Source: a virus
IMG/VR virus record: IMGVR_UViG_3300025062_000075
Span: 1 to 25,700 of that record
Strand: one strand, 5' to 3'
DNA length: 25,700 nt
Both the position numbers and the translations under genes were made by a program. Below the pieces are notes generated by a model. That model saw nothing but the letters and a program-made list of their open reading frames with translations, was not told the DNA's origin and did no database searches. Each line of letters starts with the position of its first letter. The first letter of the stretch is position 1. Of this stretch, positions 1,841 through 18,305 are shown piece after piece.

Positions 1841-2710
1841 ATGAGCCTAGAAAACCAAATTGCCAACCTGGTTGGTGCCGCCAATAACCTGACAAGTGAA
1901 GTCGCTAACAAGATGAAGGGGATTGATAATAAAGTTACTACCGCACTAACAGCGGTACCTGATCAAATTCGCACAACGATGTCGCTTTCACTTCACGTTG
2001 ATGCTGAGGAGGGTGATGACAATAACAATGGCCGTATAGCCACTCCATTTAAAACAATCGGCCGAGCGATTAAAGAAATCCCTTCCGGTGCGAGTGGAAA
2101 GATTTCGTTAAAAAATGGACAGGTGCATACAGTTAGAAAAGAAGATGGCTTTAATCCCTACGAAGCATCTGATAAAACATTGTTAATTTACAGCAGAGAC
2201 TACGGTAGTAGAGCAGTTTTGAAAATAGCCCCAAATATACGTGTGGACAATGTCAATCTAGAGGCATCATTTGTACAAGCCAGCACGCGAGTAGATATAC
2301 GATTCGAGTCAATCGTATTAGAAACAGGGAAAATAACAGATACGCAAAAAGCGATGGGGCTATTCCCGTATCCCACTAGCAATAATTACAATTCAGAATT
2401 TGGTGGCACCTTTAGTCGGGGCGGTGGCACTAGCGAAGCAGCAATGTTTAACGTTCAATTTAGCCGCTGCGTTATCAAACAGCAAGATTTTCGTCTATTC
2501 ACTACGCGCAGCGGTATTTATAATGTTTTGATGTACCAAACAGAGATTCTCAATGAGGGAAACAATGAAGAGATTTTTGACACTTTAGACCCTAAAGTTT
2601 TATCTCTCAACCAAGTAACTTACTCTGGATTCGGTGACAAAACATTGGAAGATATTTTCCTATTAAGAGAAAATTCCTATATTGCCAAGAAAGGGGCAGT
2701 CAGTAACTAA
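1841..2710 (+). CDS. Putative receptor-binding tail fibre/tailspike protein
   Basis: The 289-residue protein begins with a short helical, fibre-like segment (residues 1-45), then changes into what looks like the start of a right-handed beta-helix: 'VDAEEGDDNNNGRIATPFKT' followed by IGRAIKEI is the usual opening of pectate-lyase-like tailspike domains. The remainder is beta-rich with many Asn, Ser and Thr, as expected of a host-recognition domain. No catalytic motif is recognised. The gene is strikingly AT-rich compared with the genes before it, with different codon use, pointing to horizontal exchange of the receptor-binding tip. It lies in the same cassette (spacing three bases from the previous stop), so it probably forms the distal part of the fibre. 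Confidence 0.6.
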   Translation: MSLENQIANLVGAANNLTSEVANKMKGIDNKVTTALTAVPDQIRTTMSLSLHVDAEEGDDNNNGRIATPFKTIGRAIKEIPSGASGKISLKNGQVHTVRKEDGFNPYEASDKTLLIYSRDYGSRAVLKIAPNIRVDNVNLEASFVQASTRVDIRFESIVLETGKITDTQKAMGLFPYPTSNNYNSEFGGTFSRGGGTSEAAMFNVQFSRCVIKQQDFRLFTTRSGIYNVLMYQTEILNEGNNEEIFDTLDPKVLSLNQVTYSGFGDKTLEDIFLLRENSYIAKKGAVSN

Positions 2711-2750
2711 AATTATTTAACTAAAAACCTCTCTCAAATGGAAAATACGC

Positions 2751-3227
2751 ATGAACACATTTACACATGATGGCAAAACATATACTGGTTTTAGCACCCA
2801 AGAAGCACTTGATGCTGGTGTCCCCAAGAGCATTGTAGTTAGCCAATTGCATTTATCACTAAACGCCAATATCGACACCGCCGCAGGCAACGCCCGCGCC
2901 GCCTTCGTCAGCCCCGGCAGCTACATCGACCAAGAGTACCTACTCGCCAAACAAGAAGCGGTGGCTTGGATAGAAAGCGGCAAAGACGAAAACGCCATTC
3001 CATCGAGCGTACAGGATCACATCGATATGTTCGGAGTGAGCGCCGAAGCCGCCGCCACCGAGATTGTGGCCACCGCCGAGCAGTGGGAGCAGGCACTCGG
3101 GGCCATTCGCAGCGCCCGCCTGGGCGGGAAAGCGGCAGTGCAACGTGCCGAGACTATCGAAGCGGCAGAGGCCGCCGCCCAGCAAGCCATCGAACAGCTC
3201 AACCGCTTCCGACCAGATGCCGCCTAA
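2751..3227 (+). CDS. Tail fibre assembly chaperone-like protein
   Basis: The 158-residue product lies directly after the receptor-binding gene, the normal place for a Tfa/G-type fibre chaperone. The N-terminal part has 'FTHDGKTYTGFSTQEALDAG', and the central part has the 'QEAVAWIESGKDENAIPSSV' pattern that I associate with phage tail-fibre assembly proteins (a hydrophilic helix followed by a P-x-x-V/I turn). The C-terminus is a long Ala/Glu-rich helix. About the first 40 codons are AT-rich like the upstream gene, while the rest returns to the GC-rich style of the phage. The gene is therefore mosaic and its 5' end seems to have travelled with the fibre tip. Confidence 0.55.
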   Translation: MNTFTHDGKTYTGFSTQEALDAGVPKSIVVSQLHLSLNANIDTAAGNARAAFVSPGSYIDQEYLLAKQEAVAWIESGKDENAIPSSVQDHIDMFGVSAEAAATEIVATAEQWEQALGAIRSARLGGKAAVQRAETIEAAEAAAQQAIEQLNRFRPDAA

Positions 3228-11423: not shown

Positions 11424-12389
11424 ATGATTCCTGCCCGCCGCCCCGCCTACTCAATCGGTGGTATGGCCGCCACCGGCCGCCTGCAAAGTCTCACCATTAC
11501 CGACCGGCGCGACACCACTGCCGATGAACTCACCCTGACATTAGAAGACCACGACGGCCGCCTCGCCATTCCCCCGCGTGGCAAAGTGCTAAGTGTGGCA
11601 CTTGGCTGGGAAGGTGAAGCCCTGGTGGATCGTGGCCTATTCACCGTGGATGAAGTGGAGCACAGCGGCGCGCCGGATGTGCTCACAATCCGCGCCCGCA
11701 GTGCCAACCTGCGCAAAAGCAATCCTGCCAAGCGCTGCGAAAGCTACCACAAAAAAACCTTACAACAGGTGGTTGGCAGCGCGGCCGGGCGGCTAGGGCT
11801 GGGGGCAACCGTGGCGCCTTCGCTAGCGGGGGTCTTCATTGACCATATCGATCAAACCGATGAGTCAGACCTCCACTTTCTCAACCGCCTGGCCGAACGC
11901 TATGACGCCCTATGCATGGCCAAAAATGGCCAACTGCTGTTCATGCCCATGAACGGTGGCGTAACGGCCGGGGGAACCGCCATCCCCTCAATCACCCTAA
12001 AGCGTGGTGTGGGAGACACCCACCGCTATCTGATAGCGGATAGAGAAGAGTTCACCGGCGTGATTGCCTTCTGGTCGGATCTCGACGAAGCCGAACGCAA
12101 AGAAATACTCGTCGGCAGCAGCGAGAACGCCAAACGCCTACGCCACACCTACGCCACCGAAGGCGATGCCATACAGGCCGCCAGCGCCGAACTAAAACGC
12201 CTGCAGAGAAAGCATGCCGAATTCACCCTGGAGCTGGCCGAAGGCCGCGCCGACATCTATCCCGAAACCCCGGTCATCGCCGAAGGCTACAAACCCGAGA
12301 TCGACGCCACCCCGTGGATCATTGACGAAGTCACCCACCAATTCACCAACAGCGGCTACACCTGCGAAATCAAAATGCAGACACGGTAA
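11424..12389 (+). CDS. D: Baseplate hub / late control protein D
   Basis: The 321-residue product is the P2 gpD family ('phage late control protein'), the central hub of the baseplate spike, related to T4 gp27 and VgrG. It contains 'LTLTLEDHDGRLAIPPRGKV' near the N-terminus, 'IDHIDQTDESDLHFLNRLAE' in the middle, and ends 'WIIDEVTHQFTNSGYTCEI', all typical of the family. It closes the tail operon. No terminator is seen directly after it; the next recognisable signals belong to hicAB, which starts 117 bases downstream. P2 has ogr at this position, but here ogr is found in the early region. Confidence 0.93.
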   Translation: MIPARRPAYSIGGMAATGRLQSLTITDRRDTTADELTLTLEDHDGRLAIPPRGKVLSVALGWEGEALVDRGLFTVDEVEHSGAPDVLTIRARSANLRKSNPAKRCESYHKKTLQQVVGSAAGRLGLGATVAPSLAGVFIDHIDQTDESDLHFLNRLAERYDALCMAKNGQLLFMPMNGGVTAGGTAIPSITLKRGVGDTHRYLIADREEFTGVIAFWSDLDEAERKEILVGSSENAKRLRHTYATEGDAIQAASAELKRLQRKHAEFTLELAEGRADIYPETPVIAEGYKPEIDATPWIIDEVTHQFTNSGYTCEIKMQTR

Positions 12390-12433
12390 AGAAAGCCTAT
12401 GCCACCATTATCAAACACACGCCTAGAGTTATT

Positions 12434-12481
12434 GGGGTTATCATTTTTGACACGCCCACTAATCGGGGTTATAGTAACCCC
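12434..12481 (+). promoter_or_regulatory. Candidate HicB operator
   Basis: A perfect palindrome GGGGTTA-TAG-TAACCCC occupies 12465-12481 and covers the -10 element of the promoter below. An additional GGGGTTA half-site lies upstream at 12434-12440, in front of the -35. HicB-type antitoxins bind inverted repeats in their own promoter, so this is a natural autoregulation site; binding is inferred. Confidence 0.65.
12447..12475 (+). promoter_or_regulatory. Sigma70-type promoter of hicAB
   Basis: TTGACA (12447-12452), a spacer of exactly 17 bases, and TATAGT (12470-12475) form a near-consensus promoter. Transcription would begin near 12482, leaving a leader of about 25 bases before the GTG start of hicA. 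This rules out the longer hicA frame that begins at 12399. Confidence 0.8.
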
Positions 12482-12506
12482 ATATTCAACAACTAAGGGG
12501 CAGGAG

Positions 12507-12689
12507 GTGAACAGCAGAGCACTGATCAAGGAACTGGAAGCGGATGGCTGGGAGTTAGTGAGAGTCAAAGGCAGCCACCACCATTTCAGGCACCCGACTA
12601 AGCCAGGCACAGTGACCGTGCCACATCCCAAAAAGGATTTGAACACAGGGCTAGTAAAGGGAATCAGAAAAAGCGCCGGCCTCTTATGA
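12507..12689 (+). CDS. hicA: HicA-like mRNA interferase toxin
   Basis: Sixty residues when started at GTG 12507, preceded by AAGGGG (12495-12500) and lying downstream of the promoter. The sequence follows the HicA pattern closely: 'ALIKELEADGWELVRVKGSH' with the GSHHHF catalytic histidine region (about residues 22-27), then 'PGTVTVPHPKKDLNTGLVKG'. HicA is a small double-stranded-RNA-binding-fold RNase that degrades mRNA and is held inactive by HicB. hicB follows after 42 bases in the same transcript. The frame remains open upstream to 12399, but that region contains the promoter. Confidence 0.92.
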   Translation: MNSRALIKELEADGWELVRVKGSHHHFRHPTKPGTVTVPHPKKDLNTGLVKGIRKSAGLL

Positions 12690-12731
12690 GGCTGGCCACT
12701 GCTGCCCCGCACCACAACAGGAGATCAACGC

Positions 12732-13151
12732 ATGTTGTTTCCCATTGCAATTGAACGCGGCGACGAACAACACGCCTACGGCGTGGCGGTGCCCGATTTA
12801 CCCGGCTGCCATTCAGCAGGCGATACCTTTGAAGAGGCGATGGTCAACGCGAAGGAAGCCATTGAAGGCTGGCTAGAAGTCGCCGTCGACTACGGCGACC
12901 CGATTCCCGAAGCCACCTCCATCGAACACCACATGGATAACCCCGATTTTGAAGGCTGGATCTGGGCCGTGATCAATATCGACCTAACCCCCTACCTGGG
13001 CAAAAGCCACAAAATCAACGTCACATTGCCAGACCTACTGGTGAAACAGATTGACGATTTTGTCGCCAGCCACCCAGGGGATAAAACGCGAAGCGGCTTC
13101 CTCTCGCGGGTTGCCATGGCAGAACTGGCCAAAGCACGTAAAAACGCATAA
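12732..13151 (+). CDS. hicB: HicB-like antitoxin
   Basis: The 139-residue protein has the HicB two-domain structure. The N-terminal partly degraded RNase H-like domain (about 1-75) contains 'YGVAVPDLPGCHSAGDTFEE' and 'AKEAIEGWLE', and the C-terminal domain (about 95-139) looks like a ribbon-helix-helix DNA-binding unit ('INVTLPDLLVKQIDDFV...RSGFLSRVAMAEL'). It should neutralise HicA and repress the shared promoter through the palindrome upstream. It follows an AACAGGAG site. A strong terminator follows the stop. Toxin-antitoxin pairs of this sort on prophages stabilise the element or act in phage defence. Confidence 0.93.
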   Translation: MLFPIAIERGDEQHAYGVAVPDLPGCHSAGDTFEEAMVNAKEAIEGWLEVAVDYGDPIPEATSIEHHMDNPDFEGWIWAVINIDLTPYLGKSHKINVTLPDLLVKQIDDFVASHPGDKTRSGFLSRVAMAELAKARKNA

Positions 13152-13279: not shown

Positions 13280-13630
13280 CTACACCGCCCAACACCTGGC
13301 TTGCCGAACCACCACGCCCTTATACTGCTTGGGCGTGATAAAGCATCCCTCTCCACCGTTGGCAGGCAGCAAACGGCAACGGCTACCCACGCGATGAGAT
13401 TTAAATAGCCGGTATTCCCCTTCTACCTCAGCCACCACCAGGTCCGCATGGCCAAAAGAGCGTGCTTCATCCACCACCAGCACATCTCCTTCCATCCATA
13501 ACCCACCTGGGTGGGCCTCGTCGCTGATTTCCACCAGAAAACAGCTAGGCGAAAACCGCCGCTTGTCCATCTCTGCTATCGCGGGGTGCTCCACCCCCAT
13601 CACCGCAGGCCCTAAGTAATTTACGCGCAT
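13280..13630 (-). CDS. S24/UmuD-like protein without DNA-binding domain
   Basis: The 116-residue product resembles the C-terminal peptidase fold of LexA/UmuD proteins: 'WMEGDVLVVDEARSFGHADL' (about 45-64) matches the 'GDxLxVD...' strand, followed by 'VVAEVEGEYRLFKSHRVGSR', in which K77 sits at the catalytic Lys position, then 'LLPANGG'. There is no helix-turn-helix. The region of the usual serine (S-M about ten residues before GD) reads differently ('SDEAHPGGLW'); at the matching distance stands an Ala, with a Ser three residues further away, so self-cleavage may be lost or altered. A LexA-type box lies about 74 bases upstream. Converges on the hicAB terminator. It could be a UmuD-like SOS factor or a regulator; family call is moderate. 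Confidence 0.55.
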   Translation of the reverse strand: MRVNYLGPAVMGVEHPAIAEMDKRRFSPSCFLVEISDEAHPGGLWMEGDVLVVDEARSFGHADLVVAEVEGEYRLFKSHRVGSRCRLLPANGGEGCFITPKQYKGVVVRQARCWAV

Positions 13631-13988: not shown

Positions 13989-14930
13989 ATGCCAACAGCA
14001 GTGTCACTTTTCTCAGGTTGCGGAGGCTCAGACGCTGGCATTATCAATGCTGGCTTTGATGTGCTGATGGCCAACGATGTGCTGGCTTATGCGCAGGCAG
14101 TATATGAGCACAACCACCCAGAGACTGATTACCGCCTTGGAAGCATAAGCAACATAGAACATTTTCCTGATGCCGAGTTACTGGTGGGCTGCTATCCATG
14201 TCAAGGGTTCAGCCAAGGCGGTGTGCGTGATGCTGGCAGACAAATTAATACCCTCTACCTTGAGTTTGCTCGTGCGTTAAGGCAGATCAAGCCCAAAGCT
14301 TTCATTGTTGAGAACGTATCTGGCATGGTGCGTAAGAATTACGCCCACCTACTACAAGACCAAATACGCGTCTTCACTGAAGCTGGTTACAACGTCTCCT
14401 TTCAAGTGCTTAATTCAGCTGATTTTGGCGTTGCCCAAGAGCGTAAGAGAATTTTTATTGTCGGTATTAGAGACGATTTTGGTATCGAGTACGCCTTTCC
14501 GCAGCCAACCCATGGTGTAAATGGCAGCCCTGCCAAAGCAACGATTTATGATGCCATTGGTGGTATGCCTGAATGGCCAGAGGGAGAGTTCTACGACCTA
14601 GATTTTCACTGGTATTATCTGTCCAGAAACCGTCGTAACGATTGGTCAGAACAATCGAAAACGATTGTGGCTAACCCAAGACACATGCCTCTTCATCCCA
14701 TGAGCCCACCACTGGAGAAGCTCGAGCATAATGTGTGGCGTTTCATAAACGATGGACCAGCGCGTCGTTTTAGCTATCGTGAGGCAGCTAAGTTGCAGGG
14801 GTTTGAGGACTTAGCTTTTCCAGAACACAAATCAGGCAGCATGAGCATGCGCTACAAAGTAGTAGGCAATGCAGTCCCCCCCCCTTTATTCGAATCGGTG
14901 GCACGGGCGCTGCCTGATATATGGAGCTAA
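13989..14930 (+). CDS. DNA (cytosine-5) methyltransferase
   Basis: The 313-residue protein has all main C5-methyltransferase motifs in order: I 'LFSGCGGSDAG' (about 7-17, AdoMet binding), IV 'GCYPCQGFSQGG' with catalytic C71, VI 'ENV' (108-110), VIII 'QERKRIFIVG' (150-159), IX 'RRFSYREAAKLQGF' (259-272) and X 'GNAVPPPL' (293-300). The variable target-recognition region (about 175-258) is short, so the enzyme probably recognises a short site. Its stop at 14930 abuts the stop of the reverse-strand gene at 14931 with no base between. GC content is lower than in the tail genes. As cargo it may protect phage DNA or act as the modification part of a restriction system with the two facing genes. Confidence 0.95.
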   Translation: MPTAVSLFSGCGGSDAGIINAGFDVLMANDVLAYAQAVYEHNHPETDYRLGSISNIEHFPDAELLVGCYPCQGFSQGGVRDAGRQINTLYLEFARALRQIKPKAFIVENVSGMVRKNYAHLLQDQIRVFTEAGYNVSFQVLNSADFGVAQERKRIFIVGIRDDFGIEYAFPQPTHGVNGSPAKATIYDAIGGMPEWPEGEFYDLDFHWYYLSRNRRNDWSEQSKTIVANPRHMPLHPMSPPLEKLEHNVWRFINDGPARRFSYREAAKLQGFEDLAFPEHKSGSMSMRYKVVGNAVPPPLFESVARALPDIWS

Positions 14931-15911
14931 TCATTCGAAATAAGAAACACTCATGCTACAAAGCTCCTGAGCGATCCTACCAGCTTCTGGAATCTCAATA
15001 TCATCAATTACATCAGACAGTAGTTTCAGAATTCTTTTGCGATCAATTAAAATAACGTCACCGATCCTTACACCTCTATTCCACTTACCGTTAATATTCC
15101 TCATATCATGCGGCATAAAATAAAAATTAGCCGCAGGGTGCTGAGGTGTAATCATACTATTCATCGAAGCAGGACTTGCTTCTAGCTGTTTTTTTTCCCA
15201 GTCTTTGGGAGAACAACCACATTGAGCAAATATAACAGGGATGTGGCCTAAAGCATCACCAAGAGGCATAAAAGCTACTACATCCAAACCACCGTCACCT
15301 GTATCTTGTGGATCAAAGTCAGACAGTGGAGCTACATACCGAGGATAAATATCCTTAGCTAGCGAATGCATTTTATTGCCGAGGGTTCCAACATAACCTA
15401 AGCCTGTTTGCTGATGAGCACCAAAAGGTTTAACTTCCCAGCCAGGCAATATTTTTTTTAAAGCAAAGTAGCCGAGCTCTTCAAAAGCGCCTGTCACATT
15501 ACTTATTTTTGTTTTTGAGCAGTACTTTAAAGCAGAACATACCAACAAAAAAAGATACATTTGATGGCTTTTATTACCTTCTTCTAGATCAAGTTCTAAA
15601 AAATCATCTTCAAAAGAGAAGGGCCAAAAATCAGGTATTTGTTTTTTCCTGATCTTTAAAACCTTACTTATATCAGCCCATTTAATATTAATTTTGTCGT
15701 CAAAATTTAAATCCCCACTTCCATAGCCGACATCCAAGTCCACTCTGACATCCTCAAACTCTCCAGACAAATCATCATGTTGACCTATACTATATGATTT
15801 ATCTTGACTAATAACACACAACAACTCCACATAATCGGCCCACAAATATGTATGAGTCTGGCTGGGCACTTCAGTATAGCCCACTATCAATTCACCTAAA
15901 GCATTAGTCAT
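14931..15911 (-). CDS. Putative restriction-endonuclease-like protein
   Basis: The 326-residue protein has no firm family name from me. Its C-terminal half has a nuclease-like arrangement: a helix with E144/E145 ('GAFEELGYFALKKILPGW'), then 'DTGDGGLDVVAF' with D210, then 'IPVIFAQCGCS' with Q230. This spacing is that of PD-(D/E)xK enzymes of the Mrr-like type (E...D...QxK), except that the usual Lys after Gln is replaced (QCG); K236 or K240 nearby might compensate. The N-terminal 110 residues are acidic and unrecognised. It is the second gene of a minus-strand operon: AAGGAG overlaps the stop of the ParB-like gene and the gap is 12 bases. AT-rich, so probably acquired. Restriction function is inference from motif and context. 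Confidence 0.55.
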   Translation of the reverse strand: MTNALGELIVGYTEVPSQTHTYLWADYVELLCVISQDKSYSIGQHDDLSGEFEDVRVDLDVGYGSGDLNFDDKINIKWADISKVLKIRKKQIPDFWPFSFEDDFLELDLEEGNKSHQMYLFLLVCSALKYCSKTKISNVTGAFEELGYFALKKILPGWEVKPFGAHQQTGLGYVGTLGNKMHSLAKDIYPRYVAPLSDFDPQDTGDGGLDVVAFMPLGDALGHIPVIFAQCGCSPKDWEKKQLEASPASMNSMITPQHPAANFYFMPHDMRNINGKWNRGVRIGDVILIDRKRILKLLSDVIDDIEIPEAGRIAQELCSMSVSYFE

Positions 15912-15923
15912 ATAGATAGCTCC

Positions 15924-17021
15924 TTAATAACCTTTATTTCTTCGTGAAACAGTAAAGGCTAGAGCAGCTGTTTTTTCATCTATTGAACTTATTAGAAAGC
16001 TATGATCTTTATCTAAATCATCAACATTAGAAATAATATCAAAAGCTTGATCAATACTTTTCAACGCAGTTTCCAGCAAGTCTTTAAGCACTTGCGAAGG
16101 ACCTTCTGTATGCATAAATGCAAAATCAATATCTTTTTCTTTATTTAATATTTCTATCGCATCTCCTCCTTTTACGGTTATAGCTGCAAGCTTTCTTAAA
16201 TTCCGCGATTCACCCAGAATAGTTTCACCTAGTTGATCTTGAACAAACATCCAAGACATTAAATTCTTCAGGCTATCTTTATTTAACCCTTCAGCCTCAA
16301 CATCAAGCCTACTCTTCAAACCTAAATAATCAGTAATTCCTTTATAGGAAATAGAAGTAGTCAAAACGCCAAAATCTATATCATCGCTTTTAAGACCAGC
16401 AAGACCAAAATAATCTTCATCTTGAGCCACACTCAAAATCCTAAGACTTGTCAATATCTGAGCAACATAGTCAGATCTACTACCTATTTCTTTAGCTATT
16501 AATCTACACTGCTCATGAATTGATAAATCATTGTAAAAAGTATCTCTTAGCTCTTTAACGTACATAGCTTTTGAAAGAGGGTCCCACCGCTTTGCACCAG
16601 TTATGTGCCTATAGCCTAAATACCTTAATATGTCTTTTCTTTCTTTGAAAATAAGACAAGGCACTTTACTAGGCTTATGCTTCGCATCTCTTATAACTTC
16701 GTCAATTGAAGCTTTATTTTTCTTTGCAACAATATCTCCATTTAGAAGTTTAAGGGCAGATAGCCTTCTGTTACCTTCTACAACAATGTAATTACCCTCA
16801 GAATCAGGAGTAACTAAAAGTTGCTCACCATCAAAGTATCCCTGTTCGGAAATAGACCCCATTAATTCTAAAATATTTTCACGACGAATCATGCGATCAA
16901 CGATTTCTTCTTCAGGCTGCTCATGATCGCCGAAGTATCTAGCAAACCGTGGATTTTTTGGATCAAATTTTAACAGGTCTAGAGAAATTGTGTCTCTTTT
17001 ACCTTTAGGTGTGGTTGCCAT
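15924..17021 (-). CDS. ParB/Srx-fold protein with HTH-like segment
   Basis: About 365 residues from the ATG at 17021, which has AGGA eight bases upstream; an ATG three codons earlier (17030) is possible but lacks spacing. Counting from 17030, an N-terminal ParB-like fold is shown by 'LLKFDPKNPRFARYF' (19-33), 'SISEQGYFDGEQLLV' (59-73) and the phosphate-binding motif 'VVEGNRRLSALKLL' (83-96). A helical segment 'LSIHEQCRLIAKEIGSRSDY' followed by VAQILTSLRIL (about 169-200) resembles the ParB/KorB DNA-binding HTH. The C-terminal 150 residues are helical and unrecognised. There is no partner ParA, so chromosome partition is unlikely. ParB-fold proteins also act as nucleases or CTP/ATP switches in defence and modification systems. 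Operon with the nuclease-like gene; strongly AT-rich. Confidence 0.75.
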   Translation of the reverse strand: MATTPKGKRDTISLDLLKFDPKNPRFARYFGDHEQPEEEIVDRMIRRENILELMGSISEQGYFDGEQLLVTPDSEGNYIVVEGNRRLSALKLLNGDIVAKKNKASIDEVIRDAKHKPSKVPCLIFKERKDILRYLGYRHITGAKRWDPLSKAMYVKELRDTFYNDLSIHEQCRLIAKEIGSRSDYVAQILTSLRILSVAQDEDYFGLAGLKSDDIDFGVLTTSISYKGITDYLGLKSRLDVEAEGLNKDSLKNLMSWMFVQDQLGETILGESRNLRKLAAITVKGGDAIEILNKEKDIDFAFMHTEGPSQVLKDLLETALKSIDQAFDIISNVDDLDKDHSFLISSIDEKTAALAFTVSRRNKGY

Positions 17022-17081
17022 ATTATTCATCCTGTCAAAATACTTTCATAAAATAGGAATAAAGAAATACTATTAATCTAA

Positions 17082-17184
17082 TCAAACCACCCGCCCAATC
17101 CGAATCTCACACCGCCCCAGAATCTCCACATCATGCATATCCTACGGCTTGATCATTTCCGGCTGGCAATGGTCGTTGTCGCTA
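17082..17184 (-). pseudogene. Fragment of a second S24 phage repressor (3' end only)
   Basis: This 103-base stretch matches the 3' end of the intact repressor gene (17640-17742) with about seven differences. Read on the minus strand it encodes the last 33 residues and a stop (TGA instead of TAA). Most differences are silent third-position changes (Val, Ile, Leu, Glu codons), but one turns a Gln codon into TAG and one changes Tyr to Cys. The silent pattern means that the copy diverged as part of a working repressor, then was cut off and decayed. It lies between the secreted-protein gene and the ParB-like operon. Confidence 0.85.
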
Positions 17185-17195
17185 GCCCGAAAGAA

Positions 17196-17573
17196 TCAAT
17201 TCAAATATTGCTCAGCAGTATCAACTAAAGCTTCAGCAGCTTCACAGCTGGAAACAGCATCAGGCACACAGGATAAGCAGCGGTGTAAATCAATAGCGGC
17301 CATATCCAAGTTTGATTTAGAAACACTGAAAGGTAGCGAAGCAATCCGTGAGCGTAGCTCTTCAGCTCTGGGTTGATGCTCCTGCATCATATCCATGCAT
17401 TGAGCTACATCGCTGTTACTGGAAGAAGAACTGTATTCCGACATATCAAAACCAATAGAAACAAGCCCTCGGGCTTCATTCATAAGCTCTTCGGGCGTTT
17501 CTTCCGCCAAGGCGGTTAGCGAAAACACACTGGCAAAGACGGCTACCATTGCAATAATGCTAATTTTTTTCAT
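17196..17573 (-). CDS. Small exported protein of unknown function
   Basis: The 125-residue product starts at the ATG at 17573, preceded by AGGGAGGTGGGGA; the frame extends 12 codons further upstream without a better site. It has a clear Sec signal peptide (MKKISIIAMVAVFASVFSLT then ALA-EE, cleavage about residue 23). The mature part is acidic, with a Ser run (SSSSS) and five cysteines, including a C-L-S-C pair and one Cys shortly after a 'VSS', suggesting a disulfide-linked helical protein in the periplasm. I do not recognise the family. It lies directly downstream of the repressor on the same strand, so it is likely expressed in the lysogen, a typical lysogenic-conversion position, and is bounded on both sides by copies of the repressor 3' end. 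Confidence 0.75.
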   Translation of the reverse strand: MKKISIIAMVAVFASVFSLTALAEETPEELMNEARGLVSIGFDMSEYSSSSSNSDVAQCMDMMQEHQPRAEELRSRIASLPFSVSKSNLDMAAIDLHRCLSCVPDAVSSCEAAEALVDTAEQYLN

Positions 17574-17639
17574 TCCCCACCTCCCTGTTTTATTTCTCAG
17601 CGATCTCAAAACCGCCTTTATGTATTAATGGTTTTACAG

Positions 17640-17742
17640 TTAAACAACCCGCCCAATCCGTATCTCACACCGCCCTAGAATCTCCACATCATGCATATCC
17701 TGCGGCTTGATCATCTCCGGCTGGTAATGGTCGTTGTCGCTA
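17640..17742 (-). repeat. 3' end of the repressor gene, partner of the fragment at 17082-17184
   Basis: This is the intact copy of the direct repeat. The two copies are in the same orientation, 558 bases apart, and enclose the exported-protein gene. Confidence 0.85.
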
Positions 17743-18305
17743 ATCAAATACAGCGCGCCCCCTGCTAGGCGCTGCACCCGTTTGATTCGGCGCTCACCGC
17801 TGACCAGCAGCAAAAACACACCTTCCTGTTTCGGGTCGCGGTTACTGCGATCCACCAACACCCAGTCGCCATCGTCTAGGGTGCCGAGCATTGAATCACC
17901 GCGCACTTTCACGCCAACCACCTGGTCAGGGTTTAGCCCCTGCTCGGTTAGTTCGGCAGTGGAAAAGTACAGCGTAGTTTTCACCGGCTCGCCTTCAAAG
18001 CTTCTCCCTGCCCCGGCGGCCGCTTCAATGTCGTACATCTTGACCGGCGAATGATCCGCCGAAGGTTCACCAAACGAAACCTTAAAGGCATCGACTGGTG
18101 CGGTATCTGATCTTTTCCCTTTGAGCACATAGAGAATATCAACGCCTCTATCAGAAACCGCAGATAAGTAAGCAGTATCGGGACGACTTGTACCTTTTTC
18201 GTACTTAATTTGTGTCGTTTTACCTACACCTCCGACCTCAGCCAAAGCCGTTTGGCTAAGCCCAAGTCGTTCTCGCTCTTCTTTCAGGCGCTCACCGATG
18301 ACCAT
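17640..18305 (-). CDS. cI: CI-type phage repressor with S24 (LexA-like) autocleavage domain
   Basis: The 221-residue repressor has an N-terminal HTH (about 4-60, 'RERLGLSQTALAEVGGVGKT') and a C-terminal S24 domain with the catalytic Ser in 'VRGDSMLGTLDDGDWVLVDR' (S138) and Lys in 'ERRIKRVQRL' (K175). The linker contains 'IEAAAGAGRSFEG', whose Ala-Gly near 98-99 is the likely RecA-stimulated cleavage point. It maintains lysogeny by binding the GGTTCAT/ATGAACC sites just upstream and should be inactivated during SOS. Classical P2 repressor C is small and not SOS-inducible, so this phage combines a P2-like tail and replication system with a lambda-like switch. It ends at the duplicated 3' segment. 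Confidence 0.93.
   Translation of the reverse strand: MVIGERLKEERERLGLSQTALAEVGGVGKTTQIKYEKGTSRPDTAYLSAVSDRGVDILYVLKGKRSDTAPVDAFKVSFGEPSADHSPVKMYDIEAAAGAGRSFEGEPVKTTLYFSTAELTEQGLNPDQVVGVKVRGDSMLGTLDDGDWVLVDRSNRDPKQEGVFLLLVSGERRIKRVQRLAGGALYLISDNDHYQPEMIKPQDMHDVEILGRCEIRIGRVV

Follow-up and report, generated by a model that had tools for sequence, protein, structure and literature searches.

The antiphage system PD-lambda-5 protects Escherichia coli against nearly all phages tested and has been described as a compacted restriction-modification and abortive infection (RM+Abi) system, and several systems of the same screen sit in P2-like prophages (PMC9519451, Vassallo et al. 2022). It is the nearest experimentally tested relative of the three-gene cassette described here, which lies in a 25.7-kb viral DNA (IMG/VR record IMGVR_UViG_3300025062_000075, positions 1 to 25,700; 'the window' denotes this whole stretch). 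The trio comprises M, a cytosine-C5 DNA methyltransferase of the M.HaeIII type (13989..14930, plus strand; an open reading frame (ORF) of 313 residues), B, a PD-(D/E)xK-type nuclease-like protein (14931..15911, minus strand; 326 residues, PHROG phrog_3984), and A, a ParB-like protein (15924..17030, minus strand; 368 residues, PHROG phrog_3694). The trio is quite probably a restriction-modification (R-M) cassette carried as prophage cargo, in which M would protect its own DNA and A-B would attack unmarked DNA. A first-pass annotation, made from the letters of the window, had proposed a restriction or defense module at this place, and the present analysis supports that reading and refines it: the trio is not a one-off but a widespread cassette with a swappable methyltransferase, related to PD-lambda-5 and found in known P2 defense hotspots.

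Comparison with described systems

PD-lambda-5 and the trio share a ParB-like N-terminal domain with an EGNRR box and an adjacent DNA methyltransferase. PD-lambda-5, however, consists of two genes, its ParB-like domain is fused to an unassigned C-terminal part within the putative effector protein, and no homolog of B was recognized in it, whereas in the trio the PD-(D/E)xK protein is encoded on its own and the methyltransferase is a C5 enzyme. The relationship of A to the PD-lambda-5 protein A concerns the N-terminal part, A matching PD-Lambda-5_A over about residues 1-187 of 440-526 only. Hence, the trio cannot be classed as PD-lambda-5 itself, since A lacks the C-terminal part and M is a C5 rather than a D12 enzyme. 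In the PDC-M38 candidates, the ParB-like domain of PDC-M38A is fused to an AAA/AbiEii-type ATPase (L182:3320-6393, minus strand, and L181; L numbers denote the loci compared). These candidates use the ParB-like domain in a third way, and next to the fusion protein comes one that weakly matches an OLD-like TOPRIM.

The trio likewise resembles the type II R-M systems with HaeIII-type methyltransferases (GGCC) in its separate, convergent C5 enzyme, its HaeIII-type recognition segment and its nuclease-fold partner, but its restriction side is made of a ParB-like protein together with a nuclease-like protein. Neither A nor B matches a restriction-enzyme family curated in Pfam, NCBIfam or PADLOC, and no curated library names the trio as a system. 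The P2-like phage KL3 also carries a restriction cassette as cargo, EcoRII-C / Vsr / EcoRII methylase, which is a classical type II enzyme without a ParB-like protein (PMC3091744). In the library searched, we found no paper on the trio, on orf96/mth of phage Wphi, or on a defense combining ParB and a methyltransferase, though a listing in the supplementary tables of the P2-hotspot papers is still possible. The trio does have those features of R-M that can be looked for in a sequence, namely a methyltransferase with intact motifs and a linked protein of nuclease fold, and on these grounds it appears to be an R-M system with a previously unrecognized two-gene restriction side.

Inheritance of A-B and exchange of the methyltransferase

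M and B converge so that their stop codons abut (14930/14931), and A and B form an operon with a 12-base gap between the genes, transcribed apart from M; this layout is the one first annotated. The module had then been taken to end at 17021, which corresponds to an alternative second ATG; the ORF of A reaches 17030. Across 33 representative loci, the pairwise-distance correlation was 0.88 for A-B, 0.18 for A-M and 0.26 for B-M, and A and B were adjacent in every locus scored. M proteins 97-99% identical were found beside A-B pairs with 32/22% identity, and over a wider range, M proteins 85-99% identical stand beside A-B pairs that are 22-32% identical. Since A and B vary together, their distances correlate poorly with those of M, and near-identical M proteins lie beside divergent A-B pairs, we conclude that A and B are inherited together and that M is exchanged.

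The exchange extends to methyltransferases of other chemistries. Each of 12 distant A-B loci, taken from prophages and genomes, has a DNA methyltransferase as its neighbor, assigned by Pfam in at most 7 of the 12 and by motif or by the M profile in the others. Eight have a D12 N6-adenine enzyme (L161-L165, L167, L171, L172), L166 and L169 have an N6/N4 enzyme, L170 has a HaeIII-type C5 enzyme, and the C5 enzyme of L168 lacks the HaeIII-type motif. The A-B tree shows at least 7 changes of methyltransferase class. The D12 enzymes of such loci, L161 among them, match PD-Lambda-5_B (6e-123) and are up to 53% identical to the D12 enzymes of PD-lambda-5 (L179, L180), and the partner in PD-lambda-5-family genome loci is also a D12 methyltransferase. 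This sharing suggests that methyltransferases have been exchanged between two defense systems. Whether A-B keeps company with methyltransferases in other genomes had been named as a check on the first-pass annotation; such an enzyme is present in essentially every locus examined, with the exception of a Persicobacter plasmid.

That M has been exchanged between such divergent A-B pairs suggests that A-B acts on the DNA itself and not through a fixed interface with M. The same exchange could be read in another way, with A-B depending on M for site specificity, in the manner of type I or III systems, instead of recognizing a site of its own; partners of differing chemistry, with so many changes of class, would be easier to accommodate if specificity did not have to evolve anew each time. 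A single M lineage beside A-B pairs of 22-32% identity argues against a conserved M/A-B interface, however, and no helicase or translocase motor was recognized in the trio, so that we regard borrowed specificity as quite improbable.

The nuclease-like protein B

B matches phrog_3984 (E=4e-59), a PHROGs entry of unknown function; it has no Pfam or NCBIfam match, and PADLOC gave one insignificant match. It carries QDTGDGGLDVVAF...IFAQC, which is the aspartate and F-A-Q-C pattern that had been picked out as fitting a nuclease core. The AlphaFold model of B, built from 30 homologs, has a predicted local distance difference test (pLDDT) score of 87.5, and Foldseek of this model against the PDB places MspJI at the top (probability 1.00, E=1.2e-3), with N.BspD6I, BamHI, EcoT38I, SgrAI and Bse634I among the weaker PD-(D/E)xK entries. 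A separate sequence-profile search against PDB sequences gave no significant match; MspJI again ranked first, weakly (E 1.3, then 0.14), and in this weak profile alignment the GDGG-D and Q of B face GDGGVD(334) and Q355 of MspJI. Hence, the model and the profile search both put MspJI first, and the nuclease fold expected for the 326-residue protein was recovered as a signal.

The putative active site of B consists of D206, D210, Q230 and K241 (15189..15296, minus strand), delineated by conservation and identical in 35/35 homologs, some of them only 16-19% identical to the window protein. At position 232, which corresponds to K357 of MspJI, the usual lysine of the QxK motif, homologs have G (25) or A (10), and the window has G232; K241, which lies in the helix that follows the strand, is a candidate substitute for this lysine. 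Taken together, modeling and conservation indicate that B has a PD-(D/E)xK nuclease-type fold with a conserved putative active site.

MspJI (PDB 4f0p/4f0q) is the closest fold to B and shares the aligned GDGGxD...Q core, but it is a single larger enzyme (456 residues) that needs 5-methylcytosine (5mC), whereas B lacks the QxK lysine and lies beside an enzyme that makes 5mC. This likeness, along with a sub-threshold match of A to GmrSD_N, could suggest a type IV-like system in which A-B, like MspJI and GmrSD, cuts modified DNA, and M is unrelated to it, for example shielding the phage from host restriction. Such a 5mC-dependent nuclease would be self-destructive beside its own 5mC methyltransferase, and the association extends to adenine methyltransferases. 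We therefore rejected this reading, which is highly improbable, and with it a place in the modification-dependent class, because of the near-obligate methyltransferase linkage.

The ParB-like protein A

A matches phrog_3694 (E=3e-95), and its AlphaFold model (pLDDT 91) matches KorB, ParB, Noc and Spo0J at E about 1e-5. The EGNRR motif already noticed in A is the ParB phosphate-binding box (residues 85-89; 16764..16778, minus strand), in which E85, G86, N87 and R89 are identical in 35/35 homologs and R88 in 34/35. Against Pfam ParB_N, A scores 15.9 bits, below the gathering cut-off of 26.3 bits, and it thus falls below the Pfam gathering cut-offs used for ParB_N in a 2025 survey of ParB folds (PMC12704722). 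By its model, A has the ParB N-terminal fold with the phosphate-binding box, which suggests binding of a nucleoside triphosphate, unusual for type II. The idea that the ParB-like partner might be a DNA-binding clamp is in keeping with these structural matches, since ParB, KorB and Noc are proteins of the clamp type. A shares its fold and phosphate-binding box with these cytidine triphosphatase (CTPase) clamps, but its region aligned with the ParB ENxQR box is altered to [RK]H[IV]xG, and no ParA is seen beside it in the window, in Wphi or in the E. coli hotspot, where its neighbors are B, M and phage genes. Hence, a ParABS system and a partition role for A were rejected, there being no adjacent ParA and the partners being B and M.

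KorB and Noc-like ParB proteins can act as transcriptional regulators. With its structural match to KorB and ParB, and in an operon transcribed apart from M, A might mainly regulate the cassette while B alone restricts at the site of M. The tight coevolution of A with B and their unbroken adjacency speak against such a role, as does PD-lambda-5, where the ParB-like domain belongs to a putative effector protein; a mainly regulatory A is in our view decidedly unlikely.

The methyltransferase M

The annotation of M as a complete C5 methyltransferase on the plus strand was confirmed by a full-length match to PF00145 (E=2e-63). Its catalytic motifs are intact: the PCQ motif (P70-C71-Q72) lies at 14196..14204 (plus strand), and C71 and E108 are invariant among 52 aligned M proteins. 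The best PDB match is M.HaeIII (1dct, E=8e-50), in an alignment that spans the target-recognition region. The target-recognition segment of M, LSRNRRNDWSEQSKTIVANPRHMPLHP (14619..14699, plus strand), was delimited by this alignment and by conservation; SRNR...RHMPLHP of M faces SRNR...RQCQLHP of M.HaeIII, so that R213, R215 and R231, invariant or nearly so in the 52 proteins, align with R225, R227 and R243 of M.HaeIII. Because these arginines of M.HaeIII contact GGCC, the predicted target of M is GGCC. The window M is 66-73% identical to the M of Wphi, 12474, PaeM-D14A and L004. Genes for the Vsr mismatch endonuclease lie beside M in two loci (L004:9923-10465 and L143:4457-4939, both minus strand); Vsr repairs 5mC deamination.

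Distribution among phages and bacterial genomes

The trio recurs in P2-like phages and bacterial chromosomes: it is found in E. coli phage Wphi as orf98 (A), orf96 (B) and mth (M), in E. coli phages 12474II-V, in Pseudomonas phage vB_PaeM-D14A, where it adjoins gpD as in the window, and in a bacterial chromosome (L004) in which the Vsr gene lies beside M. Across dozens of trio loci, the identity of A-B falls to about 22-30%, and recurrence in so many divergent loci is more than chance. A search of the viral collection with the B profile found A in all 49 loci (L010-L058), always upstream, and M in almost all, nearly always adjoining B. Conversely, of the 80 viral loci in which this M clade occurs, 77 also encode A and B, and the convergent orientation of M and A-B is seen in 79/79. 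In two of the remaining three, B runs into the contig end, and in the third, the contig stops shortly beyond M in the direction in which B is expected, which is consistent with contig-end truncation. The view that M is simply an orphan or anti-restriction enzyme was hence rejected, as the M clade always occurs with A-B save on truncated contigs.

Among complete E. coli genomes, 139/5,426 (about 2.6%) have the trio, 103 with Wphi-type and 36 with 12474-type A-B, while M is common to the two types at about 93% DNA identity. The 36 genomes match Wphi in M only and might have passed for carriers of orphan methyltransferases, which was rejected as they carry 12474-type A-B. Every E. coli locus opened lay in P2 hotspot 1, between the portal and the replication endonuclease, which is a known defense locus (PMC9519451, PMC9122126).

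In five of these genomes, IS1, IS5, ISKpn26 or a frameshift disrupts A or B, and M is intact in all five. Such a pattern would be expected if A-B were dangerous without M, as in abortive infection or addiction, where methylation by M would restrain A-B and the cell would be killed on loss of the mark or when an invader inhibits or outpaces M. Support for this comes also from the RM+Abi description of PD-lambda-5, with its related ParB-like domain and D12 methyltransferase, and from the ATPase fusions of the PDC-M38 candidates. B, however, resembles a DNA restriction nuclease rather than an RNase or NADase, and the partnership with at least three kinds of methyltransferase points to recognition of a DNA mark, which direct restriction explains equally well. 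Killing of the host cell as the main outcome is accordingly unlikely.

Proposed mechanism

In the R-M reading that we prefer, M would methylate a short site throughout the DNA of the lysogen and of the phage, with the inner C of GGCC as the likeliest target. A and B would form one restriction module, presumably as a complex, in which A, by its ParB fold and perhaps in a nucleoside triphosphate-dependent manner, engages DNA and finds sites without the mark of M, and B cuts the DNA that A found unmarked. Phage or plasmid DNA that enters unmarked would thus be destroyed. This reading is favored because a nuclease-fold pair in a known defense hotspot is near-obligately linked to a methyltransferase of any chemistry, and because in PD-lambda-5, of tested antiphage activity, a related ParB-like domain stands beside a related D12 methyltransferase. 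It is further supported by the MspJI fold of B with its aligned D and Q residues and by the repair gene vsr adjoining M in L004; the five natural lesions agree with it, though they are few.

Several observations weigh on the other side. The fold match between B and MspJI is partial (template modeling score about 0.3), and with no canonical QxK lysine, activity of B would depend on the invariant K241 substituting for it. The 405-kb Persicobacter plasmid pPP2 carries an A-B pair (L009:4870-6939), and no C5, D12 or N6/N4 methyltransferase was recognized plasmid-wide. The lesions were scored in some of the 139 E. coli loci, and given the gene lengths, the chance that all five would fall in A-B is about 16%. 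Lastly, GGCC is not avoided in the window outside the trio (175 observed vs 204 expected), a test that was set aside as not diagnostic, since a protected phage would not need avoidance.

A broader and more tentative proposal is that a nucleotide-gated clamp of the ParB type could be the mark-reading core of a whole defense class, with interchangeable methyltransferases (C5, N6-adenine, N6/N4) and effectors, the latter being the PD-(D/E)xK nuclease in the trio, the fused C-terminal part in PD-lambda-5 and the fused AAA ATPase in PDC-M38. Restriction of this kind, with a sliding clamp licensing the cut, would fall outside types I-IV; we consider it possible, with the balance tilting against it. 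If A-B is a two-gene restriction module, restriction biology would gain a new nuclease family and a ParB-type reader, PD-lambda-5 would gain a mechanistic relative, and the reading of DNA methylation by a ParB clamp could be tested in a laboratory phage. The free swap of methyltransferase chemistries on one restriction core also raises the question of where site specificity resides. An unnamed defense cassette has apparently sat unrecognized in phage Wphi and in the E. coli genomes counted above.

Genomic setting of the trio

The window carries P2-type genes recognized by Pfam, namely gpU, gpD and the replication protein gpA, and is a prophage of the P2 family with the trio as cargo. The slot between gpD (11424-12386; PF05954) and the S24/helix-turn-helix (HTH) repressor (17640-18302), recognized as a cargo slot at first annotation, holds a HicAB pair, which follows gpD, and the trio. 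The AT-richness then ascribed to the operon is likewise evident, with 34-41% G+C in the A-B genes vs about 55-63% in genes for the tail and for replication. A promoter and terminator scan gave counts near chance.

The HicA toxin and HicB-like antitoxin pair (12399-13151), directly after gpD, is a second cargo item in this slot. A small S24-peptidase-like protein (13280-13630, minus strand; weak, just under the Pfam cut-off), in which Pfam recognized no DNA-binding domain, is distinct from the main repressor. A 101-base direct repeat (94%; window 17084-17184 and 17642-17742) duplicates the 3' end of the repressor gene, and its copies flank a small ORF (17196-17609) just upstream of A; the repeat is possibly a scar of cargo gain. 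Another AT-rich stretch (42% G+C, window about 2000-3000), with an ORF of 289 residues (1841-2710) without a Pfam match, may represent other cargo.

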